A DNA stretch of 35,341 nt, taken from positions 1-35,341 of the forward strand of contig CAJTEM010000044.1 of assembly GCA_910575255.1 (NCBI GenBank). The letters run 5' to 3'. The position numbers and the translations under genes were made by a program. Source of the DNA: Lachnospiraceae bacterium (GTDB lineage: Bacteria > Bacillota > Clostridia > Lachnospirales > Lachnospiraceae). Shown one piece after another: positions 5,036 to 29,671 of this stretch. A model generated the notes under the pieces. The model searched no databases, was not told the origin of the DNA, and saw only the letters and a program-made list of their open reading frames with translations. The first letter of the stretch is position 1. Every line of letters begins with the position of its first letter.

Positions 5036-5205
5036 GTCATAGTGTATCGCCCCCTCACATACGTTCGGCGGCATATCGTCGGAAGGCATTTTGAAAATGC
5101 TTCGCATTTGCCTTCCTCCTGTCATAATGTTCCGCCCCCTCACATACGTTCGGCGGCATATCGTCGGAAGGCATTTTGAAAATGCTTCGCATTTGCCTTC
5201 CTCCT
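5036..5205 (-). repeat. 85-bp tandem duplication between PTS IIC and aldolase genes
   Basis: Units 5036-5120 and 5121-5205 are identical over their last 73 bp and differ at three of the other 12 positions. On the minus strand each unit begins AGGAGGAAGGCAAATG, a complete ribosome binding site and start codon. Each contains overlapping hairpins: GCATTTT/AAAATGC, AAATGC/GCATTT and an outer GGAAGGCA/TGCCTTCC. A 45-codon frame (5192 down to 5055) starts in the upstream unit and stops in the next; it may be a leader peptide or a by-product. The first unit begins right at the IIC stop codon (5204-5206). Confidence 0.85.
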
Positions 5206-6283
5206 ACAAATGCTCGATCTCGATGTCTATATCTGCTGCGCCCTCGATATCCAGCCCAGCCTCCCCGCCGTCCTCATTCACCGGCTTCTTCCAGACCGCC
5301 AGTATCACGCCCATGATGACGCCTCCCATAAGCACCATGGCCGCCATCAGCAGGGGTTTATTGGACAGGGGGATGATGAACCACCCGCCCGCCGTAACAT
5401 AATTCTCAATGCCCAGCACATAGGTCACGCCGCCGGTAATGGTGGTAGCGATCACAGAAGCCCCGATCACCCGCAGCGGATCGTTCATGGCCAGCGGGAT
5501 ACAGCCCTCGGTGATCATGCAGATGCCCATGACAAAGGCGGATTTGATGGAATCACGCTCCACGCGGGTGTATTTTTTCCTGGCCAGAAGGGCGGAGACC
5601 GCCAGTCCCACGGACGGTATCATGCAGCAGACCAGCTTAACCGCCTCCGGCCCCGCCACGCCGTCCACCAGAAGGCCGTTGGCAAAGGTGGAAGCCGTCT
5701 TACTCATGGGGCCGCCGAAATCGACGCCGCAGAGTGCTCCCAGGATAGCCCCCAGCAGAAAACGGGATCCTCTCTGCATATTGGTCAGTGCGCTGACGAT
5801 CCAGGCAATCAGGGCCGCAATGGGCCTGCCCAGCACCGTAAAGAACAGAAATCCACATACCAGCGTGGTCAGAAGCGGGAGGATGAGCACCGGCATCAGT
5901 CCCTGCATGGTCTTTGGCACTTTCAGGTTCTTCTTTAAGAACAGGATGAAATACCCCACGAAAAACGCCGCCAGGATGCCTCCGATAAAGCCCGCGTTGA
6001 TATAGGTGCAGACAAAGCCCAGTATGAGCCCCGGCGCGATGGCAGGACGATCCGCGATGGAATAAGCGATGGCCGCGCAGATCACAGGCACCACTAAGGA
6101 CATGCCCAGATTTCCCAGCTTCCACACATACCAGATCAGCGTTTCGCCCTCCATCTGTGAAATGCCCGTGCCGCAGATGGCGACACCGATGGCCTGCAGG
6201 ATACCTCCCGCCACTACCACCGGGATCATAAACGAGATGCCTGTCATAACGTGATTTTTGATGTTCCGCAATGTTTTCTCCAT
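5204..6283 (-). CDS. PTS system, fructose-family membrane component IIC
   Basis: 359-residue permease subunit with about eight to ten hydrophobic segments. It begins MEKTLRNIKNHVMTG followed by FMIPVVVAGGILQAIG, the typical start of a fructose-family IIC domain. GFIGGILAAFFVGY and CGVDFGGPMSKTA match the conserved cytoplasmic loops of this family. It would carry the sugar across the membrane while IIB phosphorylates it. It follows the IIB gene by 21 bp and has no fused IIA or IIB domain. The C-terminal 25 residues are acidic and probably unstructured. Confidence 0.9.
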   Translation of the reverse strand: MEKTLRNIKNHVMTGISFMIPVVVAGGILQAIGVAICGTGISQMEGETLIWYVWKLGNLGMSLVVPVICAAIAYSIADRPAIAPGLILGFVCTYINAGFIGGILAAFFVGYFILFLKKNLKVPKTMQGLMPVLILPLLTTLVCGFLFFTVLGRPIAALIAWIVSALTNMQRGSRFLLGAILGALCGVDFGGPMSKTASTFANGLLVDGVAGPEAVKLVCCMIPSVGLAVSALLARKKYTRVERDSIKSAFVMGICMITEGCIPLAMNDPLRVIGASVIATTITGGVTYVLGIENYVTAGGWFIIPLSNKPLLMAAMVLMGGVIMGVILAVWKKPVNEDGGEAGLDIEGAADIDIEIEHL

Positions 6284-18131: not shown

Positions 18132-18187
18132 GAACCATTCAGAAAAACATTTACTTTTCCCGGTAATTACGATATATTTATAGAAGA

Positions 18188-18354
18188 CTAGTACAGCATT
18201 GCTTAAATTTCGGTGAATCAATTGCTTGATATCGGTGTCATCTGTGCGTCTGCGAAGCGACGGCGTAGTGGCACCTACGTCTAGCTTCGCAGGCGTGCAG
18301 AGGGCGCTGATAGCAGGTGATTGATTCACCGGAATTTAGGCAAGGCTGTACTAG
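18188..18354. repeat. Long imperfect palindrome, A type (copy 1)
   Basis: 167 bp bounded by CTAGTACAGC and GCTGTACTAG. The arms pair along most of their length with mismatches, including GGTGAATCAAT against ATTGATTCACC, up to GCGAAGC/GCTTCGC (18252-18258, 18284-18290). The tip is GGCGTAGTGGCACCTACGT (18262-18280), a CGTAG/CTACG stem around a TGG-containing loop. The left end AGTACAGCATTGCTT recurs at 28590. Its right CTAG is also the left CTAG of the next palindrome. It lies between the divergent HAD and nfo genes. Confidence 0.9.
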
Positions 18355-18516
18355 TATAACCCGTTTTAAATAACCTTCCGTTTCGCCAGTCTGCTTTCCC
18401 GATAGCACAGAGGGAAAATGCTCAACGCAGCCCCACTACGCCTCCGCTTTTCCCTCTGCACTCTCGGAAAAGTATCCTTGCCGAAACAGAAAGGTATTTA
18501 AAACGGGTTATACTAG
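18351..18516. repeat. Long imperfect palindrome, B type (copy 1)
   Basis: 166 bp bounded by CTAGTATAACCCGTTTTAAA and TTTAAAACGGGTTATACTAG, so the terminal 20 bp are perfect inverted repeats. Further in, AGAGGGAAAA pairs with TTTTCCCTCT around the tip, which on the minus strand reads GGCGTAGTGGGGCTGCGT (18425-18442). Its reverse complement matches 28742-28907 at all but two positions. Such terminal repeats resemble a miniature inverted-repeat transposable element, but no transposase is present. Confidence 0.92.
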
Positions 18517-18557
18517 GAGCAAAAGCTCTGAAACACATTAACCGGAAAGGATTTTTT

Positions 18558-19400
18558 ATGCTTACAATCGGATGTCATTTATCCTCCTCAAAAGGCTATC
18601 TGGCCATGGGAAAAGAGGCCGTAAATATCAATGCCAATACCTTCCAGTTTTTTACCCGCAACCCCCGGGGAGGCAACGCCAAAGAACTGAACCCCGCAGA
18701 TATCAATGCCTTCCTGACTTATGCAGAGGAACATAATATCTGCAAAATACTGGCTCATGCGCCCTACACCCTCAATGCCTGTGCCGCCGACGCACATCTT
18801 CGGGATTTTGCCCGCCGAACCATGGAGGATGATCTGCGCCGGATGGAATTCACGCCCGGCAACTGTTATAATTTTCATCCCGGAAGCCACGTAAAGCAGG
18901 GAGCGGAGACAGGAATTGCCTACATTGCCGATATGCTGAATCAGATTCTGAAACCAGAGCAGCATACCACCGTTTTGCTGGAAACCATGTCCGGGAAAGG
19001 AAGCGAGGTCGGACGCAGCTTTGAAGAGCTACGGGAAATCCTTGACCGGGTCAGCCTGTCAGAGCATATGGGAGTTTGCCTGGACACCTGCCATGTCTGG
19101 GACGGCGGCTATGACATTGTAAGTCACTTAGATGAGGTTCTCCATGAGTTTGACCAGGTGATTGGCCTGCAACGTCTAAAGGCAGTCCATCTCAATGACA
19201 GCCTCAACCCGCTGGGTTCCCACAAGGATCGCCATGCAAAGATCGGGGAAGGACAGATCGGCAAAGAGGCGTTGATCCGAATTATCAATCATCCGGCGCT
19301 GCGGGATCTCCCTTTTTATCTGGAGACTCCCAATGACCTGGACGGCTACGCCGCAGAAATCTCCCTGCTTCGGGAAAATTATCAGAAAGAACGCCTGTAA
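18558..19400 (+). CDS. nfo: Deoxyribonuclease IV (AP endonuclease, Nfo family)
   Basis: 280-residue TIM-barrel endonuclease that cuts DNA at abasic sites in base excision repair. Trinuclear zinc ligands are visible in order: LAHAPY (His67), [41 protein letters not shown] and a final LETP. Length is normal. SD AAAGGA precedes the ATG. It is the first plus-strand gene after the palindrome pair; any promoter would have to lie in or beside that pair. Confidence 0.96.
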
Positions 19401-28587: not shown

Positions 28588-28745
28588 CCAGTACAGCATT
28601 GCTTTCCGTCAGATGTGCGTCACACTTTGCAGGAGATTTGGTTCGAATGAGGAAGGCGTAATGGGCTACGTTGACCGAATGAGAACCAAATCTCCTGCAA
28701 AGTGGGGCGTGCTTTGATGGGAATGAATTTTCAAACGCGCTCTAG
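28588..28745. repeat. Long imperfect palindrome, A type (copy 2)
   Basis: 158 bp starting CCAGTACAGCATTGCTT, 15 bp of it (AGTACAGCATTGCTT) identical to copy 1. The stem is unlike copy 1 apart from short patches; a perfect 22-bp core pairs 28623-28644 with 28683-28704. The tip is GGCGTAATGGGCTACGT (28655-28671), the same motif as in the other three. The right end (CGCGCTCTAG) has lost pairing with the left, but shares CTAG 28742-28745 with the adjoining B palindrome. Confidence 0.85.
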
Positions 28746-28907
28746 TATAACCCGTTTTAAATACCTTTCTGTTTCGGCAAGGATACTTTTCCGAGAGTAC
28801 AGAGGGAAAAGCGGAGGCGTAGTGGGGCTACGTTGAGCATTTTCCCTCTGTGCTATCGGGAAAGCAGACTGGCGAAACGGAAGGTTATTTAAAACGGGTT
28901 ATACTAG
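28742..28907. repeat. Long imperfect palindrome, B type (copy 2)
   Basis: 166 bp with the same perfect 20-bp terminal arms as copy 1 (18351-18516) and in opposite orientation. It differs from copy 1 at two positions only: A/G in the arm and A/G at the tip, which here reads GGCGTAGTGGGGCTACGT (28816-28833). The right end CTAGTATAA, read on the minus strand, provides the last two sense codons and the stop of the pseudouridine synthase gene. Confidence 0.93.
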
Positions 28908-29621: not shown

Positions 29622-29671
29622 CCCGGTTCCTTTCTGTGCCATTCACAATAGCAGAATTTTTTCTTCCTGCC

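Follow-up and report, generated by a model that had tools for sequence, protein, structure and literature searches.

Probable MITE-like palindromes with a conserved hairpin tip at CTAG sites in Lachnospiraceae genomes

Related repeats and the two palindrome pairs

MITEPsy1 of Pseudomonas syringae is, like the elements described here, small, gene-less, likely of IS5 origin and targeted to CTAG or YTAA, and it was seen to transpose in vivo; it differs from them in its length of 100 nt, its 18-nt terminal repeats and its 4-nt duplication (excerpts of PMC3189936). No whole-length hairpin and no core common to elements with different ends is mentioned in those excerpts. The ERIC, RU-1 and RU-2 repeats of enterobacteria resemble our elements in being 127–168 bp long, intergenic and MITE-like (PMC2759123). 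They belong to another lineage than the elements studied here. ERIC and RU repeats are imperfect palindromes with a TA duplication, as is likely here, but they form one sequence family, whereas here many end types sit on one core. REP sequences and REPINs are likewise palindromic, dispersed, mostly 3' of genes and hairpin-forming; they are built from units of 20–40 bp with GTAG or CGTC tags, and RAYT tyrosine transposases are hypothesised as their movers (passages of PMC3733652). Assignment to REP/REPIN was considered and rejected, the present element being one palindrome of ~160 bp with varied ends and CTAG flanks. A search of open-licence PMC full text with a few terms retrieved no description of this hairpin family, and the MITE review PMC10969869 contains none of the terms CTAG, Clostrid, Lachnospir or hairpin.

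The window analysed here, a 35,341-nt stretch of DNA from a Lachnospiraceae bacterium, lies within a host genome of 5.14 Mb in 106 contigs. A preliminary description reported two loci at which two palindromes share one CTAG, and both turned out to be joined palindromes of ~160 bp with a single CTAG in common. Element A (18188–18354, tip-sense strand +; 167 bp with both CTAG) is a palindrome whose 72-nt arms show 81% complementarity plus G.U pairs; its tip (GGCGTAGTGGCACCTACG, 18262–18279, +) matches the tip pattern. The CTAG at 18351–18354, the target inside which one of A and B inserted, connects it to the first copy of element B (18351–18516, tip-sense strand −; 166 bp with both CTAG), whose tip was read from the sequence at 18426–18442 (−). 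At the second locus, element A2 (28588–28745, +) is a 158-bp hybrid with an A-type left end (CCAGTACAGC) and a GAGCGTGTTTGAAAA-type body and right end; its tip (GGCGTAATGGGCTACG, 28655–28670, +) was likewise read from the sequence. The CTAG at 28742–28745 belongs both to A2 and to the second B copy, again a palindrome (28742–28907, tip-sense strand +), with its tip (GGCGTAGTGGGGCTACG) read at 28816–28832 (+). An open reading frame at 29642–28899 (−) has its stop codon inside the end of this B copy (28899–28907), and a neighbouring frame stops exactly in the CTAG at several other loci. Elsewhere in the window, two tandem copies of the GA-cis RNA (RF02987), 96% alike and both above the gathering score, lie at 5036–5208 (−).

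The two B copies are indeed nearly identical (99%), and further copies exist at ~99% identity for B and at 97–98% for A; the near-identity of the B copies suggests recent movement. The tip stem CGTAG/CTACG, initially described for all four palindromes, is exact in two of them; B at 18351 has CGTAG/CTGCG, that is one G.U pair, and A2 has CGTAA/CTACG, one mismatch. The A copies were also said to share a left end while differing in their stems. This is what is seen, although the common end appears to be a recombinant one: the outer ~10 nt of A2 consist of A-type sequence (CCAGTACAGC, with the join at ATTGCTTT), whereas A2 is otherwise related to CTAGAGYGTGTTTGAAAA palindromes, and A and A2 thus agree in the left end but not in the stems because A2 is a hybrid. 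Another element (L280) has an A2-type left end and a TACATCG-type right end, and mosaics between types occur at L023, L042 and L072. Together with the hybrid at 28588, these cases indicate that element types probably exchange ends by recombination in their common inner parts.

A search for further copies by covariance model, proposed in the preliminary description for the genome and its relatives, found many. The model, built from 22 diverse elements, gave 121 matches in the host genome (its own source sequences included; best E = 2e-31), which reduce to 87 places after merging of both-strand duplicates, a lower bound since 150 of 1149 first-look candidates were scored. Among these places 71 are 158–168 nt long and four are ~216 nt. 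The tip pattern GGMGTARTGGNNNCTACG occurs 11 times in the host genome, compared to 0 when read backwards. In a sample of 299 Lachnospiraceae genomes, about one per genus, 61 (host genome included) match the structural model, again a lower bound given the strict filters and nine candidates scored for each. A stricter exact pattern is found in at least 119 stretches of genome contigs, with both Blautia wexlerae and Eisenbergiella tayi among the carriers. The 80 matches listed include genera and species of the Lachnospiraceae (Blautia, Coprococcus catus, E. tayi, Roseburia, Eubacterium ramulus, [Clostridium] asparagiforme and others), as well as broader labels such as Clostridia, Clostridiaceae or Eubacteriales, 'uncultured bacterium' and one Oscillospiraceae MAG. 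The exact tip pattern was absent from viral contigs (0 matches); searches of phages returned nothing for element B and one unannotated record for A2, and a search of plasmids with A2 returned none. Of the 55 copies in genome G149, 7 lie inside some open reading frame of ≥90 aa as called by a crude ORF caller, and in a multi-species set, with matches <700 nt from the end of a stretch dropped, 0 of 57 lie inside frames of ≥110 aa. Contigs C29, C38, C45 and C60 of G000 break at or within B copies, so that the repeat limits the host assembly.

Target site, joined pairs and the candidate mover

From the collected loci 246 elements were taken, each with a tip that could be recognised and with end bases matching at 11 or more of 16 positions. 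All are 163–167 bp long, 156 of them 166 bp, within a searched range of 160–173; with the range widened to 143–189, 217 of 245 elements measure 164–167 and the remainder are nearly all register slips. The ~216-nt variants were left out of both counts. In the five families measured, the tip starts 73–74 nt from the left end and 92–93 nt from the right end. The ends themselves are of several dissimilar kinds (AGYGTGTYTGAAAA, TA[CT]..., TGTACTGACC), and 33 kinds of starting octamer were found among the 80 pattern matches listed. The elements are short, multicopy, bounded by terminal inverted repeats and non-coding as judged by ORF listing, in keeping with MITEs.

Several variants deserve mention in their own right. 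Two elements of 216–217 nt (L053, 578–793; L091, 1288–1504) carry an extra hairpin of ~50 nt next to the tip, and the orientation of this hairpin is reversed between the two copies. Long hairpins of a second family, ~175–250 nt and without CTAG ends, have GAGATTTAGAAGTCCTTAAAT-like blocks in common (L032, 150–402; L063, 667–842; L069, 179–418). At L029 (~401–475) and L031 (~383–458), both read as the reverse complement, the left half of an A2-type element stops directly upstream of a reading frame, and the element's GGGAGGAG is positioned there like a Shine-Dalgarno sequence.

CTAG had been noted at every boundary. It flanks both sides in 206 of the 246 elements; the rest have other flanks. 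In the window, the left end of A2 has CCAG in place of CTAG. The variants among the 246 comprise 12 CTAG/CTAA, 5 TTAG/CTAG, 2 CTAG/CTAC, 1 GTAG/CTAG and 1 TTAG/CTAA, and in 19 elements the TA or the end is changed. This count demanded the inner G and C and was blind to TTAG/TTAG and CTAA/CTAA, whereas a second count (n = 245) dropped that demand and needed TA on both sides. It gave 197 CTAG/CTAG, 19 variants in the outer base only and 29 others, by eye nearly all register slips, with no TTAG/TTAG or CTAA/CTAA pair among the 245. Most copies cannot separate a 2-bp from a 4-bp duplication because CTAG is palindromic; the absence of these pairs, expected under a 4-bp duplication, led us to reject the latter as the general rule, and a TA duplication therefore fits better. 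The flanks thus point to a 2-bp TA duplication on insertion, in which case the element proper would be ~162 bp, running from G to C. Point mutations of CTAG after insertion could mimic some of the variants. Three of the 246 elements (L038, L067, L205) read CCAG on one side and CTGG on the other, so that CTAG is altered symmetrically. Neither duplication accounts for these pairs in a simple way; our guess is that they perhaps stem from very-short-patch repair.

Specificity of insertion for CTAG, which had been proposed earlier, holds both in the flanks and at three empty sites, where an uninterrupted counterpart equals the occupied site with the element and one target copy removed. Once joined, the flanks of the 246 elements gave 88 alignments that span the junction, and in many of these the counterpart is another element. 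At the first site an element has entered a CTAG internal to a second element (L199 compared with L176; 96% over 166 bp, gapless). The second compares the G149 copy at 460968 with an uninterrupted paralogue at 2983431–2983566 (90% over 136 bp, gapless), and the third compares L073, where a repeat holds a B-like copy, with L198, L200 and L048, where the repeat lacks it (87–90%, few small gaps). Target duplication with matching empty sites, as known for MITEs, is thus seen in three comparisons and in the flank variants.

The paired A–B layout, presented initially as an arrangement without a named counterpart, does not stand as an element in itself. Among the 87 places 13 junctions were counted, and a joint composite element was rejected on this count. 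In 12 of the 13, the covariance-model matches overlap by exactly 4 nt; the A2–B junction of the window falls outside the 13, the A2 match there being shortened. Joined pairs arise because every element presents a CTAG target at its ends: one element is inserted in the terminal CTAG of another, and pairs are the ordinary result of CTAG-targeted insertion.

An IS5-group enzyme acting in trans had been suggested as the mover. This is likely for the A2 type, which has an autonomous element with common ends and CTAG; for the A and B ends no such partner was found. In genome G149 the A2 end GAGCGTGTTTGAAAA occurs in inverted pairs at two spacings: 160 bp, which are the palindromes, and 879 bp. The latter are insertion sequences that measure 885 bp from CTAG to CTAG. 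Their two overlapping reading frames match NF033580 (IS5_3) and PF13340/PF01609, which places them in the IS5 family; there are five matches in G149 and five in genome G225, one of the latter partial. An IS5 copy adjoins a palindrome via one CTAG at L125, L144 and L282. In six of the eight genomes searched, the host among them, the A2-type IS5 transposase had no match at E 1e-8. A longer transposase-like gene of 427–432 aa was noted within IS5-type element copies of G149 (L129, L130). Autonomous partners were also sought for the B-type (TATAACCC) and A-type (TACAGCATTGC) ends; the transposase families searched in the host genome gave none, nor did the fetched loci. A lone end at L212, considered as the end of such an element, proved to be another palindrome. 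Movement of A2-type palindromes in trans by an IS5-family transposase is likely from the shared ends and target.

Host contig C23 holds one IS701-family element (NF033540) with CTAG flanks that adjoins a palindrome via one CTAG. It starts with TACTACAGCGAAC, which loosely resembles A-type ends, and its long open frame begins only past an in-frame stop. We did not accept it as the palindrome mover, given its different ends and the in-frame stop. IS701 duplicates 4 bp of target (passage of PMC2266710), and derivation of the palindromes from IS701 as MITEs was set aside, no TTAG/TTAG or CTAA/CTAA pair being present among the 245 elements. A search of plasmids for relatives of this IS701 element gave best places that were all at <60% identity.

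Fold, favoured strand and replication

Both elements of the first locus fold better on the tip strand, which contains GGCGTAGYGG..CTACG. For element A the RNA minimum free energy is −120.2 kcal/mol on the tip strand compared to −78.3 on the complement, and for B −103 kcal/mol compared to −82. Conservation of pairing despite changing stem sequence, as first described, is upheld in an alignment of 22 elements: 42 of 50 pairs are altered two-sidedly, and 0 of 500 shuffles reached as high a number. Paired cells amount to 91.7% compared to 64.6% in shuffled and 37–44% in slid alignments, and the covariation score is 0.722 compared to 0.233 in shuffled ones. In the same alignment the internal loop and tip are conserved, and the tip pairs at columns 77/92 and 81/88 are invariant. 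Neither in the window nor in six loci of relatives does an Rfam family cover the elements at the gathering score, and a lax search of 18150–18560 gave nothing beyond a chance-level match (E = 1).

The preference for one strand also appears without an energy model. When bases opposed on the tip strand were counted in 26 clusters defined at 75% identity, G.T exceeded A.C in 23, was lower in one and tied in two (175 and 71 in total); RNA and DNA energies each favour the tip strand in 25 of the 26. Pairing that tolerates G.U on one strand, together with covariation, is what a structured RNA would display, and single-stranded DNA would fit as well. Of the earlier proposal of a structured RNA or a protein-recognised cruciform, the kept tip and the covariation stand, the folded molecule being either RNA or single-stranded DNA.

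The orientation of the elements is tied to replication. In G149, 20 samples place the turn of the GC skew at 1.55–1.72 Mb, one of the first nine being close to zero. Of the 55 copies counted there (58 matches minus three opposite-strand duplicates), 44 have the tip strand on the lagging-coded side and 11 on the other. The bias is 21 to 7 between leading-strand genes, 19 to 4 where the neighbouring genes converge or diverge (for one of these 19 a single neighbour lies in the stretch) and 4 to 0 between lagging-strand genes. Its persistence in all groups makes gene direction alone insufficient, although the ORFs were called crudely and the groups are small. By local skew, 76 of 118 loci are lagging-coded compared to 42 (p = 0.002, loci of the same genome being non-independent), and the host genome alone gives 35 of 55 compared to 20, which is not significant (p = 0.058). 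Among 56 copies with two neighbouring genes, the tip strand is sense to both in 16 and antisense to both in 26. This link to replication speaks rather for DNA than for RNA as the folded molecule. To our knowledge, it has no precedent in palindromic mini-elements. Precedents for such a bias are to be found among transposons, since Tn7, IS200/IS605 and several IS families show replication-linked orientation (passages of PMC5371812).

Explanations and comparison with known systems

The reading that we regard as well favoured is that the palindromes are non-autonomous MITE-like elements of ~162 bp, inserted in CTAG (more broadly YTAR) with duplication of TA and moved in trans by an IS5-type DDE transposase. 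Such an enzyme would cut the ends and insert the element, the A and B types presumably being moved likewise by other enzymes; later copies would land in the CTAG at either end of an earlier copy and so give the joined pairs. The inner hairpin, comprising the tip and a mid-stem motif, is kept across differing ends that would be swapped by recombination between copies, as the hybrids indicate. Selection would act on how one strand folds, and this strand mostly lies on the lagging-coded side. Our best guess is that the well-folding strand may form a hairpin at replication forks, aiding transposition or making a long palindrome less harmful. We know of no ordinary MITEs that keep an inner structure across different ends, and the MITE reading leaves the tip unexplained for this reason. 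A bolder and doubtful proposal is that a portable, strand-specific hairpin core, made up of the tip and the mid-stem loop at a set length of ~162 bp, parasitises several transposition systems, a shared host or transposase factor reading it at the fork while swappable ends choose the enzyme. If so, this would be a bacterial transposon class defined by structure, not ends.

Three other explanations bear on the same evidence. That the hairpin is a functional RNA, be it regulatory, stabilising or a transposition cofactor, with mobility secondary, would account for the strong covariation, the conserved internal loop and tip and the predominance of G.U over A.C on a single strand (23 of 26 clusters); we consider it unlikely, because the tip strand has no sense preference with respect to its neighbours (16 compared to 26 of 56) and no Rfam family covers the elements at the gathering score, be it in the window or in six loci of relatives. 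Equally improbable seems a fold without function, in which arm-to-arm correction during replication makes the paired changes and unstable orientations are lost: the paired changes would follow directly, and the orientation bias fits the loss of versions with the good fold on the lagging-strand template, yet the kept tip, the fixed distances (tip start 73–74 nt from the end in five families) and the surplus of GT compared with AC that clusters show on the tip strand are left unexplained.

Movement as single-stranded DNA, with an HUH/Y1-type enzyme (IS200/IS605, REPIN-like) binding the tip and joining the CTAG ends at forks, appears the least probable to us. It would suit a tip conserved independently of the ends and a single strand favoured by both energy models in 25 of 26 clusters, but the A2 type ends in IS5 terminal repeats. 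IS200/IS605 elements would moreover not be expected to duplicate their target, which also counts against this explanation. The link of orientation to replication cuts both ways: fork-linked orientation is known for IS608 and ISDra2, but the good-folding strand is here on the leading-strand template and IS608 prefers the lagging-strand template (passages of PMC5371812). On the preferred reading of MITE-like elements moved in trans, these data identify a widespread repeat of common gut bacteria, from a family found in gut and rumen, that also breaks genome assemblies, and they give a likely mover for one type, A2. Why a gene-less transposon keeps its fold, tip, length and replication-following strand would bear on how small transposons use forks or avoid the cost of long palindromes.

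Among known elements, the IS5 copies of G149 and G225 (NF033580) come closest: they share CTAG flanks and terminal repeats of 15–16 bp with the A2 palindromes, but, unlike these, are 885 bp long, encode a transposase and are without a palindromic body. The IS701-family element of contig C23 has CTAG flanks like the palindromes, and its ends are identical to no palindrome seen. Compared with MITE-like elements in general, it is unusual that elements with diverged ends keep one tip, one geometry and one favoured strand.
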